64,000 nt of DNA from Actinospineispora spinosispora DSM 44797 (GTDB taxonomy: Bacteria > Actinomycetota > Actinomycetes > Mycobacteriales > Pseudonocardiaceae), in NCBI RefSeq assembly GCF_000429025.1, contig NZ_KE386833.1, positions 696,582 through 760,581 on the forward strand, read 5' to 3'. Positions 63 to 30,322 of the stretch are shown here, in pieces; position 1 is the stretch's first letter; every line of letters starts with the position of its first letter. The position numbers and the translations under genes were made by a program. The notes under the pieces are model-generated. The model saw only the letters and a list, made by a program, of their open reading frames with translations, searched no databases and had not been told where the DNA came from.

Positions 63-74
63 ACTATAGTAATC
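63..74 (+). promoter_or_regulatory. Shared ACTATAGT motif, promoter of the carbamate kinase operon
   Basis: ACTATAGTAATC lies 60 nt upstream of the carbamate kinase start. TATAGT (65-70) could be a -10 element. Variants precede four other transcription units of this cluster (5202, 7802, 11117, 12804). No convincing -35 box is visible, which would fit a regulated promoter. Whether the shared sequence is a -10 element, an operator, or both is inference. Confidence 0.6.
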
Positions 75-133
75 GCTGAATCTCCGATGGTGTATGACTG
101 TGGGGTTCGTCGTCCGGAGGGGACAGCAGGTTC

Positions 134-1111
134 ATGGGCAAGACCGTGGTTGTGGCACTCGGCGGCAACGCCATCACACGCAGTGGCCAGGCCGGCACCT
201 ACGCCGAGCAGGCCGAGAACGCGCTGGGAATGGCCGACGCGGTATGTCGGTTGCGAGCGGCCGGATGGACCGTGGTGCTGGTGCACGGCAACGGCCCGCA
301 GGTCGGGAACCTGGCCGTGCAGCAGCAGGAGAGCACCGGGAAGGTGCCCGAACAGCCGCTGCACGTCCTGGGCGCGATGACCGAGGGACAGCTGGGGAGC
401 CTGCTCACGCTGGCGCTGCTGCGGGTCTGCGGCTCCACCCTGTCCGGGGTCGCGACTGTGGTGACGCACGTGGTCGTCGATCCGGACGATCCGGGATTCA
501 GTCGGCCCACCAAACCGATCGGACCGTTCCTCAGCGAGGCCGAGGCCCGCCGGCACGCGGACGAGCAGGGCTGGACGGTGGGGGAGGACGCCGGCCGCGG
601 CTATCGCAGGCTGGTCGCCTCCCCGGCGCCGTTGCGCATCGTGGAGCTGGACGCACTCCGGGCACTGGTCGACCGGGGTGTCGTGGTCATCGCGGCCGGG
701 GGCGGCGGCGTGCCGGTGGTGCGGGACGAGGTCGGGTACCGGGGTGTCGACGCGGTCATCGACAAGGACCTCGCGGCTCAGCGGCTGGCGACCGAGCTGG
801 GTGCCGAGGCACTGGTCCTGGTCACCGACGTACCCCAGGTGATGATCGACTACGGGACTCCGAACGCTCACCCGATCGACCGGATGACCGTCAGCGAAGC
901 CCAGGCGCACGCCGACGACCACCAGTTCCCCGAGGGCAGCATGGGGCCCAAGATGCGCGGCGCGATCCAGTTCCTCCGCGCGGGCGGCAGGCTCGCCGTG
1001 ATCACGAACGCCGAGCGGGCCTGCGCTTCGCTGGACCCGAACGCCAGCCCGGAGGCCGATCTGGGCACCCGAATCGTCGCCGCCGACCTGCATCTGGGAG
1101 CCGCTCCGTGA
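134..1111 (+). CDS. Carbamate kinase (AllK/ArcC-like)
   Basis: Cytosolic enzyme interconverting carbamoyl phosphate plus ADP with ATP, CO2 and ammonia. The 325-aa protein has the amino-acid-kinase fold: VVVALGGNAI near residues 4-13, HGNGPQVG near 51-58, a GGGGVPV loop and DKDLAA. Length is normal for the family. ATG 134 follows an AGCAGG/GGAGG stretch. Its stop overlaps the FdrA gene (GTGA). No arginine deiminase or ornithine carbamoyltransferase is nearby, so an arginine-deiminase role is unlikely. The fdrA, DUF1116 and DUF2877 neighbours match the E. coli all genes, where carbamate kinase (AllK) uses carbamoyl phosphate made by AllFGH. It probably yields ATP and ammonia at the end of this pathway. 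Confidence 0.9.
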   Translation: MGKTVVVALGGNAITRSGQAGTYAEQAENALGMADAVCRLRAAGWTVVLVHGNGPQVGNLAVQQQESTGKVPEQPLHVLGAMTEGQLGSLLTLALLRVCGSTLSGVATVVTHVVVDPDDPGFSRPTKPIGPFLSEAEARRHADEQGWTVGEDAGRGYRRLVASPAPLRIVELDALRALVDRGVVVIAAGGGGVPVVRDEVGYRGVDAVIDKDLAAQRLATELGAEALVLVTDVPQVMIDYGTPNAHPIDRMTVSEAQAHADDHQFPEGSMGPKMRGAIQFLRAGGRLAVITNAERACASLDPNASPEADLGTRIVAADLHLGAAP

Positions 1112-2700
1112 GCCCTGTCGCGTCATCCACCGTCAGTTCCTCGCCCGCGCACGTCGCTCAGGCGATCCACCGGGTCACCGTCCACCAGGACACCTACGTC
1201 GACTCGGTGGTCCAGCTGTCCGGCACCCGGGCCATGCGTCAGGTCGACGGTGTCGACTGGGCCGCCGCCGCCATGGCGACGCCTGCCAACCTGCAGACCC
1301 TGGTGCAGGAGGGGTTCGAGCTGACCGAAGTGGCATCGGCGGGGGCGAACGACCTGTTCCTCGCGGTGCGGGCCGACTCGGAGGAGTCGGTGACCGCCGC
1401 CAGGGAGGCCGCCGAGGCCGCGATGTTCACCCCGCGCCAGGGTGGGACGAACGAGCGCGCGGCGCGCGCCGCGCGGACACTGGCAGAGGCCCTGGACCGT
1501 GCGCCGGACAGCAACGTCGCGGTGATCTCGGTACCGGGCGACTACGCGGCGCTGGAGGCACACAAGGCGCTCTCCTCAGGCCTGGACGTCCTGCTTTTCA
1601 GTGACAACGTGTCGGTCGAGGACGAGATCGAGCTGAAGGACCGGGCAACCGAGCTGGGCAGGTTGGTGATGGGACCCGGGGCCGGGACCGCGATGCTCGG
1701 ACACACGTGCCTGGGGTTCGCCAACGTGGTCCGCCCGGGGCGCGTCGCGGTGGTCGCCGCCGCCGGCACGGGCGCTCAGGAGGCCGCGAGCCTCGTCGAC
1801 CGCTGGGGAATCGGTGTCTCCCACGTCATCGGGCTGGGCGGGCGCGACCTGACCGCCGCGATCGGGGGCCGGATGGCGCTGTCCGCCGTGCGTGGGCTGG
1901 TCGACGACGACAACACCGACGTCATCCTCCTGGTGTCCAAGCCGCCTTCGCCCGAGGTGGCGCGCGCCGTGCTGGCGGCCGCCGAGGGTAAGCAGCTGGT
2001 GGCCGCGCTGATCGGTGTCGCGCCGGACTTCGAGGCGCCCGACGGGGTCACCGTGACCCGGACACTGGAAGCCGGTGCGGTGGCCGCGGTACGAGCGTCG
2101 GGCGGCGCCGCGCCGACGGTGACCGACGGCCTCGTGGACCGGGTACGCGAGCTGGCCGCCGAGCTGCCCGCCGAACGCACCCTGGTGCGCGGGCTGTTCT
2201 CCGGCGGGACGCTCTGCTACGAGTCACTGGTCATCCTGGCCGACGTGCTCGGACCGGTGCACTCCAACACCCCGATCGACAAGTCGCTGGGGCTGCCGGT
2301 GCCCGACGGGGCGCACAGCTGCCTCGATCTCGGCGAGGAGGAGTACACGAAGGGCAGGCCACACCCGATGATCGATCCGGAGGCCCGCATCGAGATGCTG
2401 CGGGAGCAGGGCGCCGACCCGGCCGTCGCGGTGATCATCCTGGACGTCGTGCTCGGGTACGGCGCGCACCCCGATCCGGCGGCCGAGCTGGCCCCGATCT
2501 GCGCGAAGATCATCGAAGGTGGTGGGCCCCGGATCGTCACCTACGTGCTGGGGACCGAGCGTGACCCGCAGGGCTACGCGGCTCAGAAACGGGCGTTCGA
2601 GGAAGCGGGCTGTCTGGTCACCGAGACGGCGGCCCGCGCGTCGCTGGCGGCCGCGGCGCTGGCCGGCCGCAAGCCCGAGCTGGCCGGGCACGCGCTGTGA
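1108..2700 (+). CDS. fdrA: FdrA family protein (AllF-like, acyl-CoA-synthetase-like subunit)
   Basis: 530-aa FdrA homologue, related to the succinyl-CoA synthetase alpha/beta fold with tandem Rossmann-like parts. GPGAGTAMLG sits in the nucleotide/CoA-binding region and LFSGGTLCYES begins the second half. E. coli FdrA is AllF, one of three proteins that together form oxamate carbamoyltransferase. The other two partners, DUF1116 and DUF2877, are encoded at 8489-9895 and 7784-8479. GTG 1108 overlaps the carbamate kinase stop by 4 nt, so translation is coupled. The substrate here is not known; oxalurate, as in allantoin breakdown, is only one option because no other allantoin genes are in the window. 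Confidence 0.88.
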   Translation: MSPVASSTVSSSPAHVAQAIHRVTVHQDTYVDSVVQLSGTRAMRQVDGVDWAAAAMATPANLQTLVQEGFELTEVASAGANDLFLAVRADSEESVTAAREAAEAAMFTPRQGGTNERAARAARTLAEALDRAPDSNVAVISVPGDYAALEAHKALSSGLDVLLFSDNVSVEDEIELKDRATELGRLVMGPGAGTAMLGHTCLGFANVVRPGRVAVVAAAGTGAQEAASLVDRWGIGVSHVIGLGGRDLTAAIGGRMALSAVRGLVDDDNTDVILLVSKPPSPEVARAVLAAAEGKQLVAALIGVAPDFEAPDGVTVTRTLEAGAVAAVRASGGAAPTVTDGLVDRVRELAAELPAERTLVRGLFSGGTLCYESLVILADVLGPVHSNTPIDKSLGLPVPDGAHSCLDLGEEEYTKGRPHPMIDPEARIEMLREQGADPAVAVIILDVVLGYGAHPDPAAELAPICAKIIEGGGPRIVTYVLGTERDPQGYAAQKRAFEEAGCLVTETAARASLAAAALAGRKPELAGHAL

Positions 2701-3872
2701 GCGCCTCGCCCGGGGGCCTGGCGCTCGTCTCCCATTCCACGAAGCCACGCGGCGGCCTGGTGCACACCCTGAGCCTGGCCGAAGAGCTGCACCGTCAGGG
2801 TGTCGACGTGCACCTGGTCGCGCTGGGGGACCCGTCGGTCGGGCTGTTCCGGCCGACCGAGGTGCCGCACACCGTGCTGCCGGGGCCGACCAAGGCCGGC
2901 AGCACGTTGGAGCAGAGGGTGTTCGCCTCGATCGACACCCTGGCCGGCGGCCTGGCAGGGCTGGCCGACCGTTTCGACCTGATCCACGCCCAGGACTGCA
3001 TCGCGGCCAGGGCCGCGGTCCGGGTCCGTGATGCGGGGTCCCGCGCGACGGTCGTCCGCACCGTGCACCACGTGGACGACTTCACCACCCAGGCGTTGAT
3101 CGACTGCCAGCGCCAGGCCATCGCGGAGCCGGACCGGGTCCTCGTGGTGAGCGAACAGTGGCGCGGCATCCTGCGCGACGAGTACGGGCGGGCCAGCGAC
3201 GTGGTGCCCAACGGCGTCGATCTCGACCGCTTCCCCGAGCCGCCGCCGGAGGTACTAGCTCGGCTGCGCGCGCGAGTCGGAGCGGACCGGCCCGGCCGGT
3301 TCGTCTTCCTCGCGGTCGGCGGGGTGGAACCCCGGAAAGGCAGCGTGCACGCCTTCCGCGCTCTGGCGAGGCTCAAGAAGGACGGCATCGACGCGGTGCT
3401 CGCGGTGGTCGGCGGCCACTCGTTCCAGGACTACACGGCCTACCGGGACGCCTCGTTGGCGCTGCTACCCGAGCTGGGGCTGACGCTCGGCGAGGACGTC
3501 GTGCTGCTCGGCACGGTCAGCGAACAGGAGCTCGGCGGCTGGTACCACGCGGCTGACGCACTCGCGTTCCCCTCGGTCAAAGAGGGTTGGGGGCTGGCGG
3601 TGCTGGAGGCGATGAGCGCCGGCCTCCCGGTGATCGCGACGGACCTGCCGGTGTTCCGCGAGTACCTGGTCCACGCCGAGTCGGCGCTGCTCCCCTCGGT
3701 CGCCGACGACGTGGCCCTCGCCGGGGCGATGCGCACGATGGTCCTGGACGCGGGCCTGCGCCAACGCCTGATCACGGGAGGTACGGCGCTGCTGCCGCGG
3801 TTCAGCTGGGCGGCCAGCGCGCGGCGGCACCGGGAGATCTACGCCGACGTCCGGGCTCTCGTGGCCGGGTGA
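2697..3872 (+). CDS. Glycosyltransferase, MSMEG_0565 family (GT4)
   Basis: 391-aa GT-B fold enzyme. The N-terminus LVSHSTKPRGGLVHTLSLAE matches the family signature. The C-terminal donor-binding part has FLAVGGVEPRKG, AFPSVKEGWGLAVLEAMSAG and LPVIATDLP. This glycosyltransferase family is a standard member of Nit1C clusters, together with the radical SAM protein and the AIR-synthase-like protein also found here (9927-11114, 11174-12145). It overlaps FdrA by GTGA. It is presumably cytosolic because no signal or membrane segment is visible. The sugar donor and acceptor are not known for the family. The presence of this gene argues that the cluster builds or modifies a small glycosylated molecule as well as degrading one. 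Confidence 0.85.
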   Translation: MSASPGGLALVSHSTKPRGGLVHTLSLAEELHRQGVDVHLVALGDPSVGLFRPTEVPHTVLPGPTKAGSTLEQRVFASIDTLAGGLAGLADRFDLIHAQDCIAARAAVRVRDAGSRATVVRTVHHVDDFTTQALIDCQRQAIAEPDRVLVVSEQWRGILRDEYGRASDVVPNGVDLDRFPEPPPEVLARLRARVGADRPGRFVFLAVGGVEPRKGSVHAFRALARLKKDGIDAVLAVVGGHSFQDYTAYRDASLALLPELGLTLGEDVVLLGTVSEQELGGWYHAADALAFPSVKEGWGLAVLEAMSAGLPVIATDLPVFREYLVHAESALLPSVADDVALAGAMRTMVLDAGLRQRLITGGTALLPRFSWAASARRHREIYADVRALVAG

Positions 3873-3970
3873 CCTCCATCCGGGTGCGCCGACGGTTCGT
3901 ATCGGTGCCAGCCGGGCATACTCGGCCACCGACCGGTCGGTTCGGCCGGGGCGGACCGAAGGAGGAACCG

Positions 3971-4390
3971 ATGGACCCCGATGAGGTCGACGACGACGTC
4001 TTCGAGCAGCTGGACGGCCTGGACACTCTGGACGGGCGGGGCACCAACGACCCGCTGGACGAGGGCTACTCGCCGCCGGAGAAGCCGTGGGCCGTCGAGG
4101 ACTGGGGCACCACCGCGCGCGAGGAGGCCGAAGGTGAGGATCTCGACCATCGGCTGGCGCGTGAGCAGCCGGAGTCCTGGGCGAACGAGGATCCGGATGA
4201 CGACGGTCTCGGGGACGAGTCCGACACCGACGGTGAGCTGCGTGACTTCGAGGTCGGTGACGTCCGGTCCGGTCGGTTGACGGCCTCCGATTCCGGTGAC
4301 CACGAGCCTTACGCGGAGGACGTGGGGATCGACGGAGCAGCGGCGTCGGCCGAGGAGGCCGCTGTGCACGTGGTTCCGGATCCTGAGTAG
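3971..4390 (+). CDS. Acidic DUF5709-type hypothetical protein
   Basis: 139-aa, very acidic, probably disordered soluble protein rich in Asp and Glu. It has a YSPPEKPWAVEDWGTTAREE segment and a later LREQPESWA-like repeat (LAREQPESWANEDPDDDG), as seen in actinobacterial DUF5709 proteins. ATG 3971 is preceded by GAAGGAGG at good spacing, which rules out longer in-frame starts. It lies 98 nt after the glycosyltransferase and may have its own promoter. Function is unknown, and it is probably a common actinobacterial gene unrelated to the nitrile cluster. Confidence 0.75.
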   Translation: MDPDEVDDDVFEQLDGLDTLDGRGTNDPLDEGYSPPEKPWAVEDWGTTAREEAEGEDLDHRLAREQPESWANEDPDDDGLGDESDTDGELRDFEVGDVRSGRLTASDSGDHEPYAEDVGIDGAAASAEEAAVHVVPDPE

Positions 4391-4436
4391 CCCATCACCG
4401 GCATCCCCGCTGGTCCCGGGTCGGAGTGCACTCGTA

Positions 4437-4592
4437 TCCCCGCTGGCTTTTCAGTGTGCTTGGCGTGGCCGCCCGCTCTCAACCCCCGGCTGACGCCGGC
4501 CTCGCGCAGATTCCTGGTTGCGCTGCCTCGGGGGCGAGGTTTCAGGGTTGACAGCGGGCGGCCAGGCCAAGTGCTTAGCCAGGATCGCGGGG
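4437..4592 (+). repeat. Inverted repeat unit, copy 1
   Basis: The unit contains its own hairpin: CTTGGCGTGGCCGCCCGCT (from 4459) pairs with AGCGGGCGGCCAGGCCAAG (to 4571). It starts with TCCCCGCTGGCT and ends near GGATCGCGGGG. The reverse complement matches 4974-5127 over nearly the full length with few mismatches. Confidence 0.85.
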
Positions 4593-4682
4593 GAAGGGGA
4601 GCTCTGCGGCGCTTGTGTTGGTCACGGCTGCGTCGCGCCCCACCAGTCACAACAGCCCCATCGCGGCCGACTTTGCGCGTCT

Positions 4683-4726
4683 ACGTGTTGCGTCGCACAC
4701 GTCCGGACATGTGCGACGCAACACGT
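4683..4726. repeat. 44-nt near-perfect palindrome
   Basis: ACGTGTTGCGTCGCACA (4683-4699) pairs with TGTGCGACGCAACACGT (4710-4726). The centre, GTCCGGAC, is itself palindromic, leaving a single C/A mismatch. This is far longer than expected by chance. It could be a cruciform, a protein-binding site or a terminator-like hairpin. Confidence 0.85.
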
Positions 4727-4973
4727 GGGTGTGCAAAGCCAGCGGTGGCGCCCCGCCAGTCACACGCGTAACGCGCTGGGCGACTTCGCAGAGGCTCACG
4801 CCGCGTCGCAGACACTGCAGCATCTGCGAGGCGACACGACGCTCTGCGAGGCGTGACCAAAGCGACCACAGAGACTCCTGGGACTACGTGCTCGCGCGAG
4901 GGCGCAGCCCGATGCGCAAAGAAAGCGCCATCGGTCCGCCACCCCGCACGACGTGCGCGCACACCACCCCCAT

Positions 4974-5127
4974 CCCCGCGATCCTGGCTAAGCACTTGGC
5001 GTGGCCGCCCGCTGTCAACCCTGAAACCTCGCCCCCGAGCCCGCGCAACCAGGAACCCGCGCGAGGCCGGCGTCAGCCGGGGGTTGATAGCGGGCGGCCA
5101 CGCCAAGACAATCCGAGCCAGCGGGGA
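4974..5127 (-). repeat. Inverted repeat unit, copy 2
   Basis: Reverse-oriented copy of 4437-4592 with its own internal hairpin (4995-5107). It ends with AGCCAGCGGGGA, matching the start of copy 1. Confidence 0.85.
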
Positions 5128-5201
5128 CGACGGCCCCAACGAACCGGGACGCAACCAAAACATCTAGCCAGTTGCTCAGATGTGCAGTCATTGCTACATT
5201 C

Positions 5202-5228
5202 ACTATAGGAAATGAGAGCTCTCCTATC
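5202..5228 (+). promoter_or_regulatory. Shared ACTATAGG motif and dyad, amidohydrolase promoter
   Basis: ACTATAGGAAAT is the second copy of the shared motif. CACTATAGGA (5201-5210) and TCCTATCGTG (5222-5231) form a dyad with one mismatch around an 11-nt spacer. The spacer holds GAGAGCTCTC, a perfect 10-bp palindrome (5214-5223). TATAGG may serve as the -10 element. This is the best dyad of the five sites. Confidence 0.6.
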
Positions 5229-5249
5229 GTGAGCGACGGAGGCGGTTCG

Positions 5250-6116
5250 GTGGCATCGGCGGAGAAGGTGCGCGGTCAGGTGATCGACGCGCACAGTCAC
5301 ATCGGCACGATGGATGCGTGGCAGTTCTACGACCTCAAGGAGCCGGTCAAGCCGACGGTGTACGAGTTCGCCGACGCCAAGCAGTACCTACGGCACCTCG
5401 ACGGGGTGGGGGTCGAGCGCGGCCTGGTGCTTCCCAACTACGGGATCCCGGTACAGGGGCACGCGTTCTCGCTCAACGACCTCGTTCTGGAGTCGGTCGC
5501 CAACAACGATCGGCTGGTCGGCGGGCTGTGGGTGTCGATCCTGCCGCAGAACGAGGAGCTCACCCTCAAGACCCTCGAACACGCCGGTGAGTACGGCATC
5601 GTCGCGCTCAAGACCACGTTCCTGCTCGGCGGCAACCCGGACCCGAACACGTGGGACGCCAAGACCCGGGAGCTGGCCGAGGCGTGTTTCGACGCCGCCG
5701 AACGGCACAACCTGGTGTTCCACTTCCACACCAGCGCCGGCGGTAGCTCGGACATCAACAACTTCATCCCGCTCGTCGAGGAGTTCGGCAAGCGGGTCAA
5801 GATCTATCTCGTGCACTTCGGTGGCGGCGTGAGCGGCCACATCAAGCTGGTTCCCCGGTTCCTGGACTGGGTCGAGCAGGGTTACAAGGTGTACTGCGAC
5901 ACCACGTGGACGATCGGCTTCGGCGCCCGCTGGCTGATGACCGAGATCGAGAAACGGGGCGTCGGCGCCGACCGGGTGCTGTTCGCTTCGGACGAACCGT
6001 GGAGCGATTTCTGGGGCGAGTACTGGAAGATCAACGGCGCCCCGGTCAGCGACGAGCTCAAGCAGCGGATCCTCTACCGCAACTACGAGGAGCTGTATGG
6101 CAACAACAAGTCCTGA
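5250..6116 (+). CDS. Amidohydrolase 2 family metal-dependent hydrolase
   Basis: 288-aa TIM-barrel hydrolase. It shows the metal-binding IDAHSHIG near the N-terminus, FHFHTSAGG in mid-protein, IYLVHFGGG, and ADRVLFASDEPWSDF near the C-terminus (catalytic Asp region). The GTG at 5250 is chosen because GGAGG (5238-5242) lies 7 nt upstream; longer in-frame starts would run through the shared dyad. It has its own motif-bearing promoter and converges on the nitrile hydratase operon with a 9-nt gap. It probably hydrolyses a C-N, C-O or C-C bond in the same pathway. The substrate cannot be read from sequence. Confidence 0.82.
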   Translation: MASAEKVRGQVIDAHSHIGTMDAWQFYDLKEPVKPTVYEFADAKQYLRHLDGVGVERGLVLPNYGIPVQGHAFSLNDLVLESVANNDRLVGGLWVSILPQNEELTLKTLEHAGEYGIVALKTTFLLGGNPDPNTWDAKTRELAEACFDAAERHNLVFHFHTSAGGSSDINNFIPLVEEFGKRVKIYLVHFGGGVSGHIKLVPRFLDWVEQGYKVYCDTTWTIGFGARWLMTEIEKRGVGADRVLFASDEPWSDFWGEYWKINGAPVSDELKQRILYRNYEELYGNNKS

Positions 6117-6125
6117 CCGAAGCGG

Positions 6126-6509
6126 TCAGTGGCCATGGCCGTGGCCGTGCCCGTCCCGATGGTCGTGCCCTGCCGGACGGTGGGCCAGCGTCCCGGCCCG
6201 GTCGCCGATCTCCTCGACGGTGACGATGCCCCGGACGGCGAGCACGTCCTCCAGGGCGCCGAGCCAGTGCTGGTAGTAGCTCCAGCAACTACCGGCGGGC
6301 GGTGCCGCCTCCCATGCGGCGATCCGGGCGATCAGAGCGGCCTGGAAGTCCGGCCAGCGGAACACCCCGGCGTCGTAGAGGGTGACGGCCATGCCGAACG
6401 CCCGGCTCTCCCACGGCTCGGCGAACACCAGCTCGCCGTTGGACCGCGGTGGGGCCCCGGGGCCTTCGACCTCCAGCGGAGCGGTCCGGTCGTCGAGTCG
6501 AGCGGTCAC
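6126..6509 (-). CDS. Nitrile hydratase accessory/activator protein
   Basis: 127-aa protein related to the nitrile hydratase beta N-terminal domain ([20 protein letters not shown]). This is the family of cobalt-enzyme activators that deliver metal and exchange the alpha subunit. The C-terminus is His-rich ([13 protein letters not shown]), which suits metal binding. GTG 6509 overlaps the alpha-subunit stop by GTGA. The beta-alpha-activator order is the usual one for cobalt nitrile hydratases. Cytosolic. Confidence 0.88.
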
Positions 6510-7099
6510 GGTGCCATCACCTTCGCCACGCCGACCATCGCGTCGCGGGTCACCAGTGGGACCAGGTCCTCCTCGCCCAGGGACTCGGTGCCGGCCGGAC
6601 GCTCCGGGAGAACGAGCCAGCGGACCTCGCTGCTGGAGTCCCGGACGGTGATCCGGACGTCCTCGGCGAGGTCGAGACCCATCTCGGACAGCACCTTGCG
6701 GGGCTCCTTGACGACCCGGGCGCGATAGGCGGGGTCCTTGTACCAGGACGGCGGGAGGCCGAGCACCGGCCACGGGTAGCAGGAGCACAGTGTGCACACC
6801 ACGACGTTGTGCGTGGTCTCGGTGTTCTCCACGACCACGATGTGCTCGCCCTGCGGCCCGGCGAACCCGAGCTCCTTGATGGCGGCCGTCCCGTCGGAGA
6901 GGAGGCGTTGTCGGTAGTCCGGGTCCGTCCACGCCTTGGCGACCACCTTGGCGCCGTTGAGCGGGCCGACGTTGGTCTCGTAGTTGGTGATGAACTTGTC
7001 CATCACCGTCGGGTCGACCAGTCCGCGCTCGGTGAGTAGCTGTTCCAGTGCCTCGGTGCGCAGCGCTGCGGGAAGGCGTTCGGTGTCCTCGGTGCTCAT
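6506..7099 (-). CDS. Nitrile hydratase alpha subunit, cobalt type
   Basis: 197-aa metal-binding subunit converting a nitrile plus water to the amide. The claw motif C102-T-L-C105-S-C107 is complete and followed by [14 protein letters not shown]. Thr at 103 is typical of cobalt enzymes; iron enzymes have Ser. The two outer Cys-Ser/Cys positions are the ones oxidised to sulfinate and sulfenate in known enzymes. ATG 7099 overlaps the beta-subunit stop (ATGA). Thiocyanate hydrolase gamma subunits share the motif, but the separate full-length beta subunit favours nitrile hydratase. In Nit1C clusters this place is normally held by a nitrilase. Confidence 0.92.
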
Positions 7100-7764
7100 G
7101 CGGCGTTCTCCAGGTAGGTCTCGAACAGTTCGATGGTCAGTGCGAACGGCTCGGCGTTCGCGCCCCACAGCTCGCCGGACTCGAACCGCACCGAGTAGAC
7201 GTGCTGCGGGTTCTCGCCCTGGAAGTGGGCGTGTGTGTCGGGAAGCAGCGCTGCCGGTTGGATCACCTCGACGACGCCCGTATGGCCACGCACGTAGGCA
7301 GGCAGCCTGGTGTGTCCCTCGGGCGACATGTCCTTGGCCCGCACTCGCTGGCCGACCGCGAAGGCGGGGGTCTCCTCGACCGTGCGCAGCGAACCGGGCC
7401 CGGTCGGCGAGTAGTCCGGCTTGTGCGGCTCGGGCACCGCGGGTTCGTCGACCTGCTCACCGCGCAGCACCCTGGCTCGGGCGTCGACGGCGCCGGGAGC
7501 CAGGATCGCGCTGTCGACCAGCATCAGTTCCGACGCGTTGAGCCAGCGACCGTAGTAGCCGTCCTCGAGGTAGGACGTGGGGTCGAGGCGTTCGAGAGCG
7601 TGCCGGAACGCGTCCAGATTCTGTCCGGACACCCTCCCCATGGACAGCAGCGTCAGCGCGAACGCCCTGCCCTGCCAGCTCTCGGCGAACACGGGCTCGT
7701 CCGGGCGCGGTGGATGCACCGGCCCCCAGCCGTCCGTGCCGCCCATATCGGCGATCCCGTCCAT
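7096..7764 (-). CDS. Nitrile hydratase beta subunit
   Basis: 222-aa subunit that pairs with the alpha chain to form the active site. It starts [16 protein letters not shown], the family N-terminus, and has [12 protein letters not shown] and [18 protein letters not shown]. The C-terminal SH3-like domain has [23 protein letters not shown] and [12 protein letters not shown]. The start follows a GAGAGGTGG ribosome site. It is the first gene of the nitrile hydratase operon, and the shared promoter motif lies about 40 nt upstream inside the 3' end of the DUF2877 gene. Confidence 0.93.
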
Positions 7765-7783
7765 GGCGCCACCTCTCGTGGTT

Positions 7784-8479
7784 TCACGATGAAAGATGAG
7801 AATTTACTATAGTAGATAGATCGGGAATTGCGCCGCCGAGCCCGATCCTGATTCCGGACAGCAGCGCCCTGCCCGAGCTCGCCCCGATGTCGGTGAGTCG
7901 GGCGCACTCCGGGACGTCCGCGTCGGCGCCGTGCTCGGCGAGCGCGAGCACCACGTCGTGCGCGGGCGAGATGCACTGCCCGCGCGCGGCCCAGTACAGG
8001 AACGCGGCGGCGATCTCGGTGGTGCGGACCGACGCGGCGATCGCGGCCGGCACCTCGCATGCGTGCGTCGACGCGAGGACCAGGAACAGCCCGGCCAGGA
8101 GGTCGTCACCGGCCGGGGTGAGGCCCGGTCCTCGGCCGCCGAACCGATCCGCGTAGTCGGCCAGCTGGTCCGTCGTGATCGCCGGGGTCAGGCCGGAGGG
8201 CAGCGAGCCGACCCAGGTCGGAGCGTCGAGCGGCAGGCTCCAGGTGCGGCCGGACACGGTTCGGGAGTCGGTCCGGACCTGCTCGCCGGGCCGGCACGGT
8301 GGCAGCTGCGCGCACCGAGCATGGAGCGGCCCGGCGGGCACGGACGCGGTGGTGAGTGCGCACAGTCCTCCCGGCATCGCCAGATAGGCCGCCCGGCGGT
8401 AGCAGGCGAGCACCCGGCCGACCCCCGGCCGGCGTAGCGCGGCGGAGGCGCCGAGTCCGAGGTCCAGCACCGGGCTCAT
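7784..8479 (-). CDS. DUF2877 protein (AllH-like carbamoyltransferase subunit)
   Basis: 231-aa protein with the DUF2877 core FGGRGPGLTPAGDDLLAGLFLVL and a C-terminal GRALLSGIRIG segment. E. coli AllH (YlbF) belongs to this family and works with AllF (FdrA) and AllG (DUF1116) as oxamate carbamoyltransferase. It lies 9 nt after the DUF1116 gene on the same strand. It is separated from fdrA by the amidohydrolase and nitrile hydratase genes, unlike the compact E. coli arrangement. The 3' end carries the nitrile hydratase promoter motif. Confidence 0.85.
   Translation of the reverse strand: MSPVLDLGLGASAALRRPGVGRVLACYRRAAYLAMPGGLCALTTASVPAGPLHARCAQLPPCRPGEQVRTDSRTVSGRTWSLPLDAPTWVGSLPSGLTPAITTDQLADYADRFGGRGPGLTPAGDDLLAGLFLVLASTHACEVPAAIAASVRTTEIAAAFLYWAARGQCISPAHDVVLALAEHGADADVPECARLTDIGASSGRALLSGIRIGLGGAIPDLSTIVNSHLSS
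7802..7814 (-). promoter_or_regulatory. Shared motif, nitrile hydratase promoter
   Basis: Read on the - strand this is ACTATAGTAAAT. TACTATAGTA (7805-7814) is a perfect 10-bp palindrome. It lies within the last codons of the DUF2877 gene, so nitrile hydratase has an internal promoter or operator besides any read-through. TATAGT would give a leader of roughly 30 nt. Confidence 0.6.
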
Positions 8480-8488
8480 CTCCGATGC

Positions 8489-9895
8489 TCAGGTCACCCG
8501 GTCGGCCAGGTCGAGCAGCGCGGCGACGAAGCAGTCCTTCGGTGCGGTGGCGACACCCGCGCCCACCTGGCCGATGCCCGAGCTGGCGTGCAGGATTCCG
8601 GTGGTGACCTTCGGTGTGATGCCCAGCTCGACCACACGGCGTACATCCACACCGAGCGGAGTGCCGCTGAAGTCCATCGGCGGCAGGGTGAACCGGCTGC
8701 TGGTACCGGCACAGACGGCTCGGAAGCTGAGGGTGGCCTCCGCGGCGTCCGCCATCGTTCCACCGAGGAACGCCGCGACGGCCGCCGAACCACCCGCCGC
8801 CGGCCCGCCCATCCCGGTGAGCTCCAGTACCGCGCTGTCGCCGATGTCTCGTGCGCTGGTCTCCGGGCCGTAGCCCGAGTAGTAGAGCGCGTCGTTCACC
8901 GGCGGCGCGTCGGTGAGGTGCCAGGTCGGCGACCCGGCCAGCTTGATGCCGAACGTCGTGCCGTTGCGCGACATGGTCGTCACGATGCTCGACCCGGTGA
9001 CCTGCTCGGCCCACAGCTGCAGCGACTTGGCCGCCGCCATCGCGATGTTCAGGAAGAACAGGTGGTTGCCCGACAGGTACTCGCCGAACGGCACGCGTGC
9101 ACCGTCCGGCAGGCCGGTGATCCAAGGCAGCCAGGTGCGGGTCAGCAGGTTCGTCGCGGCCTGGGTGCGCATGTGCAGGTCGTCGCCCATCGTGATGCCC
9201 TGCGCGGCGATGGCCAGTACGTCCAGCGGTCCAGCGTGCTCGAGGATCTGTCGGACGGCGGGGCCGGCGACCTCGGCGAGGAAGCGCAGCCGGGCGATGG
9301 CCTCGTCGGTGTCGCGGCCGAACCACGCCACATTGCCGGGACCCTGGTTGATGCCGGAGAACGCGCGCGTTCCGCCTTCGGCGTTCTCCACGACCAACAC
9401 CGGCTGGCTCGGCCCGAGTGCGCTGGCCATCGGGACGACGGTGTCGTGGTGGTTCGCCGCGTCGAGTGCCACCGCGCCACGGCTCAGCAACCCGTCGGCT
9501 TCGGCCACGTCGTCGGCCCATCCCTCGGCGACCACGGCGGCACGCATGGAGCGGCGCAGCGGATCGCAGTGCTCCGGGTAGGGCAGCGGCGGTCCGCAGT
9601 GCAGCAGCATGCGGCCTTCGACACCCGGCACCGCCGCGCCGAGTGCGGATACCGTGACCAGCCGGGGGACCCCCTCGTTGAGTCGTCGGACCACCTCGGT
9701 GTTGGCGGCGTCGATCGCCTCGGCCGCGCGACCGTAGGTCAGGCACAGCGCGCGTACCGCGGCCAGGTCGCCGTCGGCCGGGATCCGCCAGTCCACCTGC
9801 TCGACCGGGCGATCCTGCGCACTGACCGCGTCGGCGAACATGGGCAGCCCGATGTTGACCACCTCGACGTTCTCCGGCAGCGTCAACTGGGTCAT
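8489..9895 (-). CDS. DUF1116 protein (AllG-like carbamoyltransferase subunit)
   Basis: 468-aa homologue of E. coli YlbE/AllG. Features include NIGLPMFADAVSAQ at the N-terminus, INQGPGNVAWFG, AAQGITMGDDLHMRTQAATN, a Gly-rich GGPAAGGSAAVAAFLGGTMA and a C-terminal GVATAPKDCFVAALL. AllG is the large, probably substrate-binding part of the three-protein enzyme. The start has an AGGAG site and follows the radical SAM gene by about 30 nt, so both are likely co-transcribed. With FdrA and DUF2877 the full three-subunit set is present in the window. Confidence 0.87.
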   Translation of the reverse strand: MTQLTLPENVEVVNIGLPMFADAVSAQDRPVEQVDWRIPADGDLAAVRALCLTYGRAAEAIDAANTEVVRRLNEGVPRLVTVSALGAAVPGVEGRMLLHCGPPLPYPEHCDPLRRSMRAAVVAEGWADDVAEADGLLSRGAVALDAANHHDTVVPMASALGPSQPVLVVENAEGGTRAFSGINQGPGNVAWFGRDTDEAIARLRFLAEVAGPAVRQILEHAGPLDVLAIAAQGITMGDDLHMRTQAATNLLTRTWLPWITGLPDGARVPFGEYLSGNHLFFLNIAMAAAKSLQLWAEQVTGSSIVTTMSRNGTTFGIKLAGSPTWHLTDAPPVNDALYYSGYGPETSARDIGDSAVLELTGMGGPAAGGSAAVAAFLGGTMADAAEATLSFRAVCAGTSSRFTLPPMDFSGTPLGVDVRRVVELGITPKVTTGILHASSGIGQVGAGVATAPKDCFVAALLDLADRVT

Positions 9896-9926
9896 CGCTT
9901 GTCTCTCCTAGCCCGGTGTGGGGTCG

Positions 9927-11114
9927 TCAGTTCCGTCTGCCGATCTGCAGGAGCGGCGCGGGGCGCGTCGCTCCCGTCGGGCTCGCGCACGGGGGTGCGG
10001 CGCCGGCCCGCTGGACCAGGTTCAAGGACGAACAGGCCTGGCAGCGTGCGCAGCCCGCGACCGCGGTGTCCGCACCGAGCCCCCGGGCGGCCAGGAAGCC
10101 GGCCACCTTGCGGTAGATCGGCTCGGTGTACTCCCGCGACGGTGCCGGGACGTGCTCCATGAGGGAGCCGGCCACCGGCCGCAGCGGTACCACGAACGGA
10201 TAGACGCCGATGTCGACGGCTCGGCGGCACATCTCGACGGTCAGATCGGGGTCCTCGCCCATGCCCAGGATCACGTAGGTCGACACCCGGCCTTCGCCGA
10301 ACACCTCGACCGCGCGCTCCCAGGTCTGGAAGTAGCGGTCGACCCCGGTGCGGAACTTGCCGGGCGCGACCCTGGCCAGCACCGCCGGGTCGAACGACTC
10401 GATGTGCACACCCACGGCGTCGATGCCCATGTCGTGGACCCGATCCAGCACGGTGAGGTCACGCGGCGGCTCGAACTGCACCTCGACCGGAAGCCCGGCG
10501 GCCTCCTTCACGGCCTGCCCGCAGCGCGCGACGTACAGGGCGCCCCGGTCGGGCGCGACCGACGAGCCCGTGGTCAGCGTGGCGTCCACCGCGCCGTCCA
10601 GCTCCTTCGCCGCGACCGCGACCTCGGCGAGCATCGCCGGTGTCTTCTTGGCGATGGTGGCGCCCGAGGCCAGTGACAGGCCGATCCCGCAGAAGCCGCA
10701 CTGGTCGGAGTTGCCCCAGTAGTTGCAGGTCTGCACGACGGTGGACGCCAGCGAGTCGAGGTGCAGCAGCGCGATCTGGTGGTAGGGCACGCCGTCCGCG
10801 GTGGTGAGGTCATAGAACCGGGGGCGGGAGGTCCCGGACACCGAGGCCACCTTGACCCCGTGGAGATAGATGCCCTGGCTGCCGTCCTCGGCGCGCAGGG
10901 CGTAGGGCGAGTCGGCGCTCGGCGGCACGGTCACCGGGACGCCCTCGACCCACAGCATGCCCGAGTCGGACGGACCGGCGCCGCCCTTGCGTGAGGTCTC
11001 CAGGGTCGTCTCGATGCGCATCCCGACCGCCTGGAGCTCCATGATCAAGGCGGCGACGTCGGCGGTGTTCGAGCCGGTCGACGACGGGGGCGCGGTGCTC
11101 ACGACATCGGTCAT
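9927..11114 (-). CDS. Radical SAM protein, MSMEG_0568 family
   Basis: 395-aa radical SAM enzyme. The cluster cysteines are spaced C130-x8-C139-x2-C142 (within TCNYWGNSDQCGFCG), wider than the usual CX3CX2C. A second Cys-rich motif, CARCQAC, lies near the C-terminus and may hold another iron-sulfur centre. The barrel has TTGSSVAPDRG, VEVQFEPPRDL and GVHIESFDP. This family is a hallmark of Nit1C clusters; its reaction is not established. The start sits directly after TATAATAAATGA, so the mRNA may be leaderless. It begins the operon leading into DUF1116, DUF2877 and nitrile hydratase. Confidence 0.88.
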   Translation of the reverse strand: MTDVVSTAPPSSTGSNTADVAALIMELQAVGMRIETTLETSRKGGAGPSDSGMLWVEGVPVTVPPSADSPYALRAEDGSQGIYLHGVKVASVSGTSRPRFYDLTTADGVPYHQIALLHLDSLASTVVQTCNYWGNSDQCGFCGIGLSLASGATIAKKTPAMLAEVAVAAKELDGAVDATLTTGSSVAPDRGALYVARCGQAVKEAAGLPVEVQFEPPRDLTVLDRVHDMGIDAVGVHIESFDPAVLARVAPGKFRTGVDRYFQTWERAVEVFGEGRVSTYVILGMGEDPDLTVEMCRRAVDIGVYPFVVPLRPVAGSLMEHVPAPSREYTEPIYRKVAGFLAARGLGADTAVAGCARCQACSSLNLVQRAGAAPPCASPTGATRPAPLLQIGRRN

Positions 11115-11116
11115 TC

Positions 11117-11128
11117 ATTTATTATAGT
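11117..11128 (-). promoter_or_regulatory. Shared motif, radical SAM operon promoter
   Basis: On the - strand the site reads ACTATAATAAAT, with a consensus-like TATAAT only 6 nt from the start codon. That spacing suggests a leaderless transcript. Upstream ATAGT and this ACTAT form a short dyad with an 11-nt spacer, the same spacing as at 5201-5231. Confidence 0.6.
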
Positions 11129-11173
11129 GGTTGCCGCCTACTATCCGATACATCAGTTCAGGTTGCTCGGATG

Positions 11174-12145
11174 TCAGTGTGGTAACCCGGTGACGGTGAA
11201 CTCGTCGATGCGCAGCACGAGAGCGCGCTCACCATCGCGTTCCAGCGCGAGCTCGCCACTGCCGTCCAGGGTGCCGACCACCGCCGCGGCCAGGTCACGG
11301 GCCTCGAACGCGCCAACGCATTCCGCCTCTCGGCCGGGCGGCACACACAGCAGGAAGCCGTAGCTGGGGAAGCAGTTGAACCAGCGAACCAGCGGTACCC
11401 CGAGGGGACAGGGCACGGCGTCGACGTCCACCGTCACGCCGAGGCCGGTCGGCTCCAGCAGCATTGCGAGCGAACCGACCAGGCCCGCCATGCTGATGTC
11501 CTTCGCCGCCACCACGAGGCCCTCGTCGGCCAGCGCGGGCAGCAGACGTACGTCCCCGGGGCAGCGGTCGCCCCGCGCGCCGAACGCGGGGAAGAAGGGG
11601 AAGTCGGGACGCATCTCCCCGTCGAGGGCCGCCGCCACGACGAGGGACTGGCCCTCGGCGGCGCGGGTGACCGACAGGGCTCTCGGCGTCGTTCCGATCC
11701 CGAACGCGGAGATCGCCGGCTCACCGTCATGGATGGTCAGGTGGCCGCCGACGATCGGTACCTGAAAGAGCTCACTCGCCTCACGCATGCCGGCCAGCGC
11801 GGCCCTGGCCGTCGCCTCGGTGCCGACCACCGTGTCGACGATGCCCAGCGGTTCGGCGCCCATCGCCGCCAGGTCGTTGACGTTGGTGAGCACCGCGGCG
11901 AAACCGGCGCCGCGCGGGTCCGCCCGGACGAACGGCGGGAACATCGCCTCGCCGCAGGCGACCGTGCCGCCGGACAGCACCGCGCCGTCGTCGCCCGGCC
12001 CCGCGACCCAGTCGGTGCCCCCGAGTACCTCGCCGACCAGTGCGATGTCGGCCTTGGCGCGCAGACCGGGGTTGGCGAGCACCGAGGCCACGAGGTCGTC
12101 GAGGGACGCGGTGTCGACCAGCGTCCGGGGCGCCCGATCAGCCAT
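11174..12145 (-). CDS. AIR-synthase-like protein, sll0787 family
   Basis: 323-aa PurM/SelD-superfamily ATP-binding protein. It shows GGTDWVAGPGDDGAVL near the N-terminus, LTNVNDLAAMGAEPLGI, IVGGHLTIHDGEPAIS and DISMAGLVGSLAMLLEPTG. Family members bind ATP and phosphorylate or activate a small molecule. The sll0787 branch is found in Nit1C clusters and is distinct from purine PurM; its substrate is unknown. Its ATG overlaps the end of the regulator gene by 8 nt, so both are made from one mRNA. Confidence 0.85.
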   Translation of the reverse strand: MADRAPRTLVDTASLDDLVASVLANPGLRAKADIALVGEVLGGTDWVAGPGDDGAVLSGGTVACGEAMFPPFVRADPRGAGFAAVLTNVNDLAAMGAEPLGIVDTVVGTEATARAALAGMREASELFQVPIVGGHLTIHDGEPAISAFGIGTTPRALSVTRAAEGQSLVVAAALDGEMRPDFPFFPAFGARGDRCPGDVRLLPALADEGLVVAAKDISMAGLVGSLAMLLEPTGLGVTVDVDAVPCPLGVPLVRWFNCFPSYGFLLCVPPGREAECVGAFEARDLAAAVVGTLDGSGELALERDGERALVLRIDEFTVTGLPH

Positions 12146-12758
12146 TGAGCTGCCACCAGAGCGTGACGGCCGGCTCGTCGCCCGCGTTGTGCCAGCTGTA
12201 CGGGCAGTCGGTGGGGTGGGTCAGCGTGTCACCCGGCTGCACCACGTGCTGTTTGCCCGCCACCTCGACGGTCAGCGTGCCGCCGAGGACCAGCAGCAGC
12301 TGCTTGCCTTCCCGTGCCGCAACGAGCCCGCCGCTCGATCCGCCGGGCTCGATGACCGCCTGTACCGCGTCGGATCTCAGTCGTTCTTCGGGCAGGGACA
12401 GTGACACCGAGGTCACGCCCCTGGCCTCGGGAGCCCAGTCCCGAGGGGCTGGTGGGCGGCCCGCTGCCCGGACGTGCACCGCGACCGGAGCCGGTCGATC
12501 GGCGTCGTCGACGAAGTGCGAGATCGGTCGGCCGAGTGCGCCGACGATCTTGAGCAGGGTGGTGATCGTGGGAACCATGTCGCCGCGCTCCACCTTGTGG
12601 ATCGCGGCGGCAGAGACGTTCGCGCGCGCGGCGAGCTGCTGCAGGGACAGCCCCTGCTCCTGGCGTACCTCGTGCACCTTCGGGCCGATCGCCCGCACGA
12701 TCGGCTCCCAGTCCGGCGTGGCTTCGGACGAGTCGCTCTGGGGATCCGGCAGGGTCAT
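12138..12758 (-). CDS. XRE-cupin transcriptional regulator
   Basis: 206-aa regulator. An N-terminal helix-turn-helix (about residues 20-75, VRQEQGLSLQQLAARANVS, then AIHKVERGDMVPT) is followed by a C-terminal cupin (about 135-206, LLLVLGGTLTVEVAG and QPGDTLTHPTDCPYSWHN) that probably senses a small molecule. The start has a CCGGAGAAG site. A shared-motif variant lies about 50 nt upstream, so it may control itself. It is the only regulator in the nitrile cluster and the natural candidate to bind the five shared sites. That link is inference. Confidence 0.87.
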   Translation of the reverse strand: MTLPDPQSDSSEATPDWEPIVRAIGPKVHEVRQEQGLSLQQLAARANVSAAAIHKVERGDMVPTITTLLKIVGALGRPISHFVDDADRPAPVAVHVRAAGRPPAPRDWAPEARGVTSVSLSLPEERLRSDAVQAVIEPGGSSGGLVAAREGKQLLLVLGGTLTVEVAGKQHVVQPGDTLTHPTDCPYSWHNAGDEPAVTLWWQLNG

Positions 12759-12803
12759 CGACGGCTTCTCCGGTGATCAGGTGTATCCATCATTCTAGAT
12801 GAG

Positions 12804-12815
12804 ATTTCCTATGAT
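12804..12815 (-). promoter_or_regulatory. Shared motif variant upstream of the XRE-cupin gene
   Basis: On the - strand this reads ATCATAGGAAAT, differing from the amidohydrolase site only in the first three bases. TAGAAT further downstream could be the actual -10. It marks probable autoregulation. Confidence 0.5.
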
Positions 12816-29783: not shown

Positions 29784-30322
29784 GGCCGGTCCTCCTTCGT
29801 CGTGTGGGGCAACAGCGCGCGGAGCACCGGGACCACCGCTTCGGGCGTCAGCTCCTCCCAGCCGGCGCCCTGCTCGATGCGTGCCCGGATGTCGGAGGAG
29901 GACAGTCTCCCCTCGGGATCGCCGTCGAGCACGCGAACCGGGTAGCCGGCGTCGGCGAGCAGCCGTGCCTTGTGCCGTTCCCAGTCGCTGTAGGCGCGCA
30001 CCAGCTGGCGCGCGTGCAGCGGCACGTACTCGGGCCAGTGCTCCGGCCGGGTCAGGTCGAACGGAACGATCGTGGTGCGCTCGGTGAGACCGCGCGCGGC
30101 CAGCGCGGCGGCCAGCAACCGCGCCCGTTCGTAGTAGGTGAACGGGTTGGCCGAGCGACGGTGACGATGGTCGGAGGTCACCTCCCGATGGCGTGCTCCG
30201 AGGTCGGGATTGGTGATCGCCACGATCAGCCCGTCCGCGTCGTTCAATGCGATCTCGAACAGCTCGAGGTGCTGGGCATGGACGGGCTGGAAGCGGCCGG
30301 TGACGCAGACCAGGCCCGTCAC
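29780..30322 (-). CDS. NadM/RibL-like nucleotidyltransferase
   Basis: 180-aa cytidylyltransferase-fold enzyme. GRFQPVHAQHLE (9-20) is the (T/H)xGH-type nucleotide-binding region and LSSSDIRARI near residue 140 is the ISSTxIR-like motif. The nearest known types are archaeal NMN adenylyltransferase and related enzymes that attach AMP or CMP to a phosphate. GTG 30322 overlaps the SelD stop. In this operon it may adenylylate or cytidylylate a selenium- or phosphate-bearing metabolite. An ordinary NAD role is possible but does not explain the neighbours. Confidence 0.8.
   Translation of the reverse strand: MTGLVCVTGRFQPVHAQHLELFEIALNDADGLIVAITNPDLGARHREVTSDHRHRRSANPFTYYERARLLAAALAARGLTERTTIVPFDLTRPEHWPEYVPLHARQLVRAYSDWERHKARLLADAGYPVRVLDGDPEGRLSSSDIRARIEQGAGWEELTPEAVVPVLRALLPHTTKEDRP

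Follow-up and report, generated by a model that had tools for sequence, protein, structure and literature searches.

What could join a Nit1C-type gene core to a nitrile hydratase, the three subunits of a carbamoyltransferase and a carbamate kinase? The question is raised by a stretch of the genome of the actinobacterium Actinospineispora spinosispora DSM 44797, 64,000 nucleotides long and called here the window (G000:C1:696582-760581 of the host genome; bare coordinates are positions within it). An initial annotation had seen in it a Nit1C-like cluster with nitrile hydratase in place of nitrilase, joined to an AllFGH-carbamate kinase set, and all of the genes that it named are present by family profiles, with the AIR-synthase-like, AllF and XRE-cupin proteins scoring under the cut-offs. 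The window edge cuts the cluster. The whole supercluster spans about 29 kb (approximately G000:C1:680517-709339), the window holds the right-hand 12.6 kb, and to the left, beyond the view of that annotation, lie coenzyme M (CoM)-type genes, LarBCE, a disulfide reductase, Sll0783 and a GNAT gene. The gene block suggests an undescribed CoM-linked nitrogen pathway. In the reading that we prefer, to which we assign a probability of roughly 0.36, the supercluster acts as one metabolic unit in which a carbamoyl group in a CoM-thiol context would be turned into ATP, ammonia and CO2.

Interleaved operons in the window and to its left

The cluster genes within the window span 134-12758, slightly inside the limits of 63-12815 first given to them. 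Open reading frames were taken from our own codon-score caller rather than a standard gene finder, and locus tables may miss genes. The genes are as follows, with scores in bits.

134-1111, plus strand: carbamate kinase (ArcC/AllK type); NCBIfam NF009007 292.9 against a cut-off of 266, just under TIGR00746, Pfam AA_kinase
1108-2700, plus strand: AllF (FdrA) subunit of an AllFGH-type carbamoyltransferase; NF004760 424.7, slightly short of the 433 required; Pfam Ligase_CoA exceeded by far
2697-3872, plus strand: MSMEG_0565 family glycosyltransferase (Nit1C-type); TIGR04047 347.8 against 259.85
about 5250-6116, plus strand: Amidohydro_2 metal-dependent hydrolase-like protein (PF04909)
6126-6509, minus strand: nitrile hydratase accessory/activator protein; TIGR03889 76.7 against 46
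6506-7099, minus strand: nitrile hydratase alpha subunit with a CTLCSCY metal motif; TIGR01323 301 against 249.85
7096-7764, minus strand: nitrile hydratase beta subunit; TIGR03888 192.6 against 152.2
7784-8479, minus strand: AllH (DUF2877) carbamoyltransferase subunit; PF11392 67.9, gathering 25
8489-9895, minus strand: AllG (DUF1116) carbamoyltransferase subunit; PF06545 219.9, gathering 27
9927-11114, minus strand: MSMEG_0568-type radical SAM protein; TIGR04043 382.6 against 303.7
11174-12145, minus strand: AIR-synthase/HypE-superfamily ATP enzyme, sll0787-like; TIGR04049 250.9, under the cut-off of 321.3
12138-12758, minus strand: XRE-cupin transcriptional regulator, which opens the minus-strand operon; weak XRE and cupin matches, none over cut-off

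These genes are packed into two tight operons, each of which mixes Nit1C-type and All-type genes. Both junctions of the plus-strand operon (ArcC to AllF and AllF to glycosyltransferase) have a spacing of -4 bases. The minus-strand operon runs from the XRE-cupin regulator through the AIR-synthase-like, radical SAM, AllG, AllH, nitrile hydratase beta, alpha and accessory genes, with successive spacings of -8, 59, 31, 9, 19, -4 and -4 bases. Given this alternation inside packed operons, the neighbourhood of Nit1C-type and All-type genes exceeds chance adjacency. The amidohydrolase gene is set apart from the glycosyltransferase gene by a 1.4 kb stretch with inverted repeats, where 150-base arms (92%) flank a 349-base spacer at 4459-5107 and palindromes of 27 and 39 bases are also present.

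We examined 24.6 kb to the left of the window as stretches L089 and L090, in which the following genes are met in order towards the window.

LarE, LarB and LarC: L090:8518-11236, all over NCBIfam cut-offs
OsmC, on the other strand
a 110-residue open reading frame
ComA: PF02679; NCBIfam 233 against 280, under the cut-off
XcbA/DUF7714 family protein: 328 against 150, over the cut-off
XcbD-like: 568 against 600, under the NCBIfam cut-off
XcbE-like: 246 against 450, under the NCBIfam cut-off
XcbC-like: 420 against 575, under the NCBIfam cut-off
a CoA-disulfide-reductase-like protein of the flavin adenine dinucleotide (FAD) type
F16: 87 residues, no family match
MSMEG_0572/Sll0783: about 4.4 kb left of window base 1; TIGR04044 233 against 109.85
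F9: L089:5636-6265, a 209-residue protein without known family, conserved in the supercluster
MSMEG_0567-type GNAT (MSMEG_0567/Sll0786): about 3.2 kb left of window base 1; TIGR04045 107.9 against 68.45
a SARP-type regulator, on the other strand

From ComA through XcbC, successive genes overlap by 4 to 16 bases. The position of the GNAT gene also bears on the initial annotation, which had noted that the N-acetyltransferase of standard Nit1C clusters is absent from the window; this is literally true, but it is an edge effect.

The individual proteins carry signatures that are informative about their likely chemistry. AllF is 39% identical to Escherichia coli FdrA, with similarity that starts at about residue 20, so that the start of AllF is uncertain, and its best PDB match is FdrA (3dmy), followed by succinyl-CoA synthetase alpha. 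AllG is 36% identical to E. coli YlbE and matches the PDB entry 3clq, to which no function is assigned. A second, distant AllG (34%) is encoded elsewhere in the host genome at G000:C1:1004343-1005554 (L001, L088), and tblastn with the window proteins and the AllH profile recognized no AllF or AllH in the surrounding 19.9 kb (L088). The radical SAM protein has a CX8CX2C motif and a C-terminal CX2CX2C motif, and C130, C139, C142, C355, C358 and C361 are conserved at the 95% level among 51 rows; at E 0.001 neither it nor the amidohydrolase has a PDB relative by sequence. The best family match of the AIR-synthase-like protein is TIGR04049, and since its score falls below the cut-off we count it as diverged; it also scores 147.3 bits with methanogenesis marker 2, and PurL, PurM, ThiL and HypE are weak PDB relatives. 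Relatives of the XRE-cupin regulator adjoin the cluster in other families too, and its cupin part matches ureidoglycine aminohydrolase weakly, far under the cut-off.

The motif CTLCSCY, which we take to mark cobalt-type nitrile hydratases, is present in 17 of 18 rows of the alpha subunit, with CSLCSCY in the remaining one, and the best PDB chain is a cobalt nitrile hydratase. We considered a thiocyanate hydrolase and rejected it: the alpha subunit is over the TIGR01323 cut-off, and the thiocyanate hydrolase gamma profile TIGR03887 gives 185.5 against 291.45. The FAD disulfide reductase has the Cys59 of the CoA-disulfide-reductase type in 28 of 30 rows (one protein being counted twice), and the exceptions are diverged copies in L102 (Pseudonocardia dioxanivorans) and L106 in which alanine replaces the active-site cysteine. 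Its best PDB relatives are NADH oxidases and CoA-disulfide and CoA-persulfide reductases, and assignment as a 2-ketopropyl-CoM reductase was rejected, 2-oxopropyl-CoM reductase ranking far lower among the PDB relatives. Cys114 of Sll0783 is present in 39 of 39 rows (again with one protein counted twice), and the model of a 94% identical relative, P0108 (pLDDT 81.8), matches DsrE, YchN and TusBCD structures, in agreement with the YchN-like assignment of Nit1C ORF1 (Podar et al. 2005, PMC1199592). The AlphaFold model of F9 (pLDDT 89.6) has a helical first half followed by a small beta sheet and two helices, and gave no PDB fold match at E 0.001; among its 107 sequence matches, itself included, those few with a named source come from Pseudonocardia, Pseudonocardiaceae or an unplaced actinomycete.

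Recurrence of the linkage and its variable parts

In a sample of 396 genomes drawn evenly from the phylum, among them that of the host, the radical SAM protein has matches at E 1e-60 in 28. Thirteen of these carry the window type, at 51-100% identity, and represent six families (f1, f21, f22, f40, f42 and f46; the protein of G103 is a contig-end fragment). The other 15 have a more distant radical SAM protein (49% or less), Nit1C content being seen in only part of them, and include G251 and G112, the genomes of L083 and L087, whose very distant relatives fall under 'other' in the tree. Close AllG (55% identity or more) occurs in nine of the 396 genomes and close XcbC (57% or more) in ten, all of them among the 13 and none among the 15, a co-occurrence with Fisher p values from 1.2e-15 to 1.2e-17, in which kinship is not corrected for. 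The genes are also physically close: AllG and XcbC lie 1.6-17 kb apart in 9/9 genomes with both close forms, and AllG lies within 13 kb of the radical SAM gene in 10/10 genomes with both on one contig, the two being on separate contigs in G253 and G103. More distant AllG (41-43%) is present in the radical SAM locus of three f22 genomes, and in two of the 15, G100 and G121, a distant AllG (37%) is encoded apart from the radical SAM gene. One f22 locus, L078, is a distant cluster version in which aminotransferase- and decarboxylase-like genes separate ArcC from AllF, and related genes are present in L076 and L077.

Across families, identity to the host proteins is only 51-66% for the radical SAM protein and for the close forms of AllG and XcbC, and gene order varies while much of the gene content is kept. 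Because of this divergence and reordering, and because the GC content of the cluster (0.707) is like that of the window (0.701), the association of AllG, XcbC and radical SAM looks old and maintained. The same observations speak against the proposal that the parts are together only through recent horizontal transfer of one island; the patchy distribution within the Pseudonocardiales is what such a transfer would leave, but we give it only the slenderest probability.

The radical SAM protein is 80-87% identical to Pseudonocardia proteins, which makes the host look like a relative of that genus, and a genome scan with it identified 36 loci. We tested 28 genomes from which these loci come, chosen for the presence of the radical SAM gene (25 titled Pseudonocardia, two Pseudonocardiaceae and one Pseudonocardiales; the radical SAM rows of G397 and G399 are identical, and their search results nearly so). 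AllG (68% or more) is present in 19 of the 28, and close XcbC (76% or more) in the identical 19. Close Sll0783 (78% or more) follows the same division, being of full length in 18 of the 19 AllG-bearing genomes, reduced to short fragments in G421, and present in one of the nine others. That one is G418, a small metagenome-assembled genome whose contig L054 still has ArcC, AllF, the reductase, Sll0783 and nitrile hydratase, and which probably lost AllG through a contig break. In P. dioxanivorans AllG (about 6.64 Mb), XcbC (about 1.71 Mb) and radical SAM (about 5.46 Mb) are dispersed, although all are kept. Right beyond AllG in L108 and L117 (P. terrae and P. kujensis) there is an apparent corrinoid methyltransferase set, with an MttB-like protein, a corrinoid protein and an activator.

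The recurrence of the linkage in both samples leads us to reject an accident of one genome, the outcome that the initial annotation had named as refuting it; the two halves that the initial annotation had joined do belong together. The recurring parts are ComA, the XcbA-family protein, XcbC, XcbD and XcbE; a thiol/sulfur redox group of the single-cysteine FAD disulfide reductase, DsrE-fold Sll0783 and OsmC; a diverged Nit1C-type core of radical SAM, GNAT, AIR-synthase-like protein, glycosyltransferase and Sll0783; and AllF, AllG, often AllH, and ArcC. The presence of nitrile hydratase, the amidohydrolase and LarBCE, and of AllH beside AllG, differs from genome to genome.

Searches for AllH, GNAT, F9, the reductase and the amidohydrolase covered fetched stretches rather than whole genomes. 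The description of the AllFGH set as complete is true in the window but not general, since an AllH profile search is positive in 13 of the 24 AllG-carrying genomes (weakly in G078 and G143). In L047, L049, L053 and L104 the nitrile hydratase beta gene adjoins AllG and leaves no room for AllH, unlike in the window. The amidohydrolase is present in the window, in L046 and in most loci outside the Pseudonocardiales, was not seen in L047, L049 or L051-L055, and has relatives of 46-49% identity in Nit1C-type loci of other actinobacteria (L064-L066, L079 and L082). LarC at 64% or more is present in 13 of the 19 AllG-bearing Pseudonocardiales genomes, as pieces only (38-61%) in four (G404, G405, G406 and G409) and in a distant form (40-41%) in two (G419 and G420); it is present at 67-69% in three of the nine AllG-lacking genomes. 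Distant LarC (42-44%) is found in four of the 12 other carriers and in none of a further 20 genomes that share the order or class. With pieces counted as present, LarC and AllG are associated within the 28 genomes (Fisher p 0.005), but the patchy distribution led us to reject the Lar genes as a core part; they are associated and not obligate.

The distribution of nitrile hydratase bears on the initial annotation, which had seen it in place of the nitrilase and had proposed a route that hydrates a nitrile to an amide, from which AllFGH would transfer the carbamoyl group to phosphate. Several features favor this route: the nitrile hydratase genes share an operon with AllG and AllH, and 14 of the 19 Pseudonocardiales genomes that have AllG encode a close alpha subunit (72% or more) near AllG or XcbC on the same contig, with alpha on other contigs in three more (G404, G405 and G409). 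However, a close alpha was not found in the other two (G410 and G421), and is present in five of the eight AllG-lacking genomes other than G418 (G397, G399, G400, G408 and G412), as well as in G418 itself. Among the 12 carriers outside the Pseudonocardiales a close alpha (73-75%) is present in three of f46 and a distant one (57-64%) in two, and none was found in the remaining seven, one of which, G253, is 81% complete. Nitrile hydratase is an accessory part of the cluster, and the idea of a general replacement does not stand. The chemistry is a further obstacle, as a carbon-bound nitrile would demand cleavage of a carbon-carbon bond, which on general chemical grounds is foreign to carbamoyltransferases, and AllFGH takes its carbamoyl group off nitrogen (PMC11326118). 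The route cannot hold for an ordinary carbon-bound nitrile, and we consider it highly unlikely.

Relation to Nit1C, AllFGH and coenzyme M gene sets

Nit1C-type clusters are spread across several phyla (PMC1199592), and their nitrilase has been tied to cyanide assimilation in Pseudomonas. Common to Nit1C and the cluster described here are the YchN/DsrE-fold ORF1 (Sll0783/MSMEG_0572), radical SAM, GNAT, an AIR-synthase-like protein and an optional glycosyltransferase (PMC1199592), although the AIR-synthase-like protein here is under the family cut-off and the radical SAM protein is on a separate branch. In a quick radical SAM tree with long branches and 50 rows (L047, L059, L061, L062, L063, L067 and L085 having no usable row), the window type stands apart from nine Nit1C-labelled rows, with support of 99 on the Nit1C side and 87 on the other. 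Three Nit1C components were not found in 54 sequences, comprising the window, L089, L090, L046-L057, L068-L078 and L091-L118: the nitrilase (tblastn at E 1e-3 with two nitrilases of locus L066), the MSMEG_0569-type flavoprotein (tblastn with the L066 protein), which the initial annotation had already noted as absent, and ORF6 of about 100 residues (three ORF6-like queries, so labelled by size and place). The L066 queries are named by sequence and place alone, the nitrilases being two F17 proteins. The cluster also adds CoM-type genes, AllF/G/H, carbamate kinase, the disulfide reductase, F9 and F16. With radical SAM, GNAT and Sll0783 present, and the nitrilase, flavoprotein and ORF6 not found, we rejected filing the locus as Nit1C; judged from its sequences the cluster is a sister of Nit1C and not a member, with a core that is recognizably Nit1C-related.

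In E. coli, AllFGH uses phosphate to split oxalurate into oxamate and carbamoyl phosphate, from which carbamate kinase then gives ATP, and the carbamoyltransferase can run in reverse in vitro (PMC11326118). The three subunit families and carbamate kinase are likewise present in the window, but here they are embedded among Nit1C-type, CoM-type and nitrile hydratase genes. No allantoin-pathway gene, such as stands beside AllFGH in E. coli, was recognized among the typed genes of the ~29 kb cluster, to which the search was confined. A non-allantoin setting is known elsewhere, as AllFGH and carbamate kinase accompany biuret hydrolase in nitrifiers, for which the available text does not mention radical SAM and reports nitrile hydratase separately (PMC12625717).

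The CoM-type genes resemble the xcb genes for bacterial CoM biosynthesis of alkene and vinyl-chloride degraders, with ComA, XcbC-, XcbD- and XcbE-like proteins, the XcbA/DUF7714 protein and an overlapping operon in common, and in both settings a CoA-disulfide-reductase-like gene adjoins the CoM genes (PMC8727900). The cluster differs from the xcb clusters in that the CoM-type genes stand beside AllFGH, carbamate kinase and Nit1C-type genes, and neither an epoxyalkane:CoM transferase nor an alkene monooxygenase was recognized among its typed genes (the rest of the genome again not having been searched). The nitrile hydratase matches the cobalt enzymes, with alpha, beta and accessory proteins all over their cut-offs and a shared CTLCSCY motif, but departs from them in its operon, shared with AllG, AllH and radical SAM; no amidase was recognized among the typed genes of that operon, and the host genome was not searched for one. 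Of the nickel-pincer system, LarB, LarC and LarE are present, while LarA (PF09861) has no match in the host genome at E 0.001, so these cofactor genes are apparently orphans there; the CXXC-C pattern of the host LarE is that described for an iron-sulfur LarE (PMC9283937). Apart from the cluster, the window encodes SelD (selenide, water dikinase) with a score well above the cut-off, in a gene (30319-31329, minus strand) whose neighbors are nicotinamide mononucleotide adenylyltransferase-like (29780-30322) and phosphoglycerate-mutase-like (28431-29783) genes.

These precedents also raise the possibility that the cluster is a set of independent modules lying side by side, with AllFGH-ArcC serving purine ureides, CoM and the disulfide reductase serving an alkene or epoxide pathway, and the Nit1C-type core separate from both. 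In vinyl-chloride and ethene clusters, CoM genes do stand with genes for a CoA-disulfide reductase and for a protein of 308 residues (PMC8727900), AllFGH-ArcC stands beside biuret genes in nitrifiers (PMC12625717), the radical SAM core is separable in the Pseudonocardiales, and AllH is not always beside AllG. Set against this are the co-occurrence of close AllG and close XcbC, the interleaving at the level of single genes, the recurrence with shuffled order in several families, and the lack of recognized allantoin-pathway, epoxyalkane:CoM transferase or alkene monooxygenase genes within the limits given above, and we regard independent modules as unlikely. A literature search, made largely without subscription papers, yielded no paper that we recognized as describing this gene combination and no account of what a whole Nit1C cluster makes.

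A proposed pathway for a carbamoyl group in a thiol context

A transferable carbamoyl group sits on a heteroatom, and a carboxamide bonded carbon to carbon is no carbamoyl donor. Because nitrile hydratase is in the operon and a carbon-bound carboxamide cannot donate its carbamoyl group, any nitrile used should be bound to sulfur, nitrogen or oxygen. Succinyl-CoA synthetase normally carries an acyl group from thiol to phosphate or back, and the likeness of AllF to this enzyme in its plan, together with the surrounding thiol genes (CoM-type, reductase, DsrE-fold, OsmC and the sulfur-inserting LarE), makes a thiol-carried carbamoyl group attractive. In the pathway that we favor, a compound in a CoM-thiol context would come to bear a carbamoyl group on sulfur or nitrogen. 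This group could be gained directly, or through the hydration of an S- or N-bound nitrile in carriers that have nitrile hydratase. AllFGH would then pass it to phosphate, carbamate kinase would convert the carbamoyl phosphate to ATP, ammonia and CO2, and the disulfide reductase may keep the thiol carrier reduced. Gene content, the interleaving of operons, conservation and co-occurrence are observed; we infer that the thiol is CoM itself, that the direction is catabolic, and the order of the steps and the chemistry of the carbamoyl donor.

A number of observations weigh against this pathway, or against parts of it. XcbC, XcbD, XcbE and ComA are clear relatives of the CoM enzymes but all under the NCBIfam cut-offs, so that the product could be a CoM analogue, and the E. 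coli AllFGH substrate is an N-carbamoyl compound and not a thioester. AllH is needed by the E. coli enzyme, yet it is patchy beside AllG among the carriers, and in the fetched stretches it was not found for 11 of the 24 (G028, G386, G396, G398, G404, G406, G410, G411, G413, G417 and G423). The association is also less than perfect: G124 pairs XcbC with radical SAM but gave no match for AllG, three of the 13 genomes with the window-type radical SAM (those of f22) lack a co-located XcbC and have only a distant one (39-43%) elsewhere, and XcbC matches at E 1e-60 occur in 23 of the 396 genomes, ten of which (46% or less) are without the radical SAM type. More distant AllG is common, with 49 of the 396 genomes matching at E 1e-20, many of them without radical SAM. 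In the Pseudonocardiales, nine of the 28 genomes keep radical SAM, usually with glycosyltransferase and GNAT, without AllG and XcbC; in some of these, P. autotrophica for one, the radical SAM gene is beside those two genes, and the core is separable and can live alone. The radical SAM tree nests these AllG-lacking loci among hybrid loci, and several AllG genomes, P. dioxanivorans for example, have the radical SAM gene elsewhere. Independent changes are few, since AllG changes five times on the radical SAM tree (26 of the 28 genomes), and the four available pairs, although all concordant for AllG and XcbC, give a sign test p of 0.125, four pairs being too few for a value of 0.05.

A more specific form of the pathway, quite unlikely as a whole, is a route for nitrogen from cyanide or thiocyanate. 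CoM disulfide (or persulfide) would trap cyanide as CoM-S-CN, the cobalt-type nitrile hydratase would hydrate this to S-carbamoyl-CoM (CoM-S-CONH2), and AllFGH would phosphorolyse the thioester to carbamoyl phosphate and free CoM, with carbamate kinase harvesting ATP, ammonia and CO2. The single-cysteine reductase, Sll0783 with its DsrE fold, and OsmC would serve the thiol and persulfide side, and carriers without nitrile hydratase would need another route to the S-carbamoyl stage.

The flow could also be in the biosynthetic direction, with carbamate kinase and AllFGH carbamoylating an acceptor, derived from CoM or not, that the AIR-synthase-like enzyme then dehydrates to a nitrile or thiocyanate, the product being an unusual sulfur- or nitrile-bearing cofactor or metabolite. 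HypE makes thiocyanate from thiocarbamate, and because the AIR-synthase superfamily includes HypE (with PurM, PurL and SelD) this is a serious rival, if a doubtful one. The glycosyltransferase, GNAT, radical SAM, the CoM and Lar pathways and the SARP-type regulator look biosynthetic, as do the aminotransferase- and decarboxylase-like genes between ArcC and AllF in f22 (L078), and the E. coli AllFGH is reversible in vitro (PMC11326118). However, carbamate kinase with AllFGH is catabolic in E. coli, nitrile hydratase, where present, would undo the nitrile, and the similarity to HypE is weak and common to many ATP enzymes.

The system offers a concrete chemical handle for tracing the pathway of a conserved relative of Nit1C, in which carbamoyltransferase subunits and carbamate kinase replace the nitrilase and CoM-type genes are added, the handle being a carbamoyl group and a sulfonated thiol. 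It hints at a non-allantoin substrate for AllFGH, at genes for the nickel-pincer cofactor in a host that has no LarA match, and at CoM in actinobacteria whose clusters are without recognized alkene-pathway genes, with P. dioxanivorans, P. hydrocarbonoxydans and P. oceani among the named carriers. If the cyanide or thiocyanate route were true, CoM would have a use beyond methane/alkane and alkene-epoxide chemistry, and the Nit1C-type core would have a role linked to cyanide.

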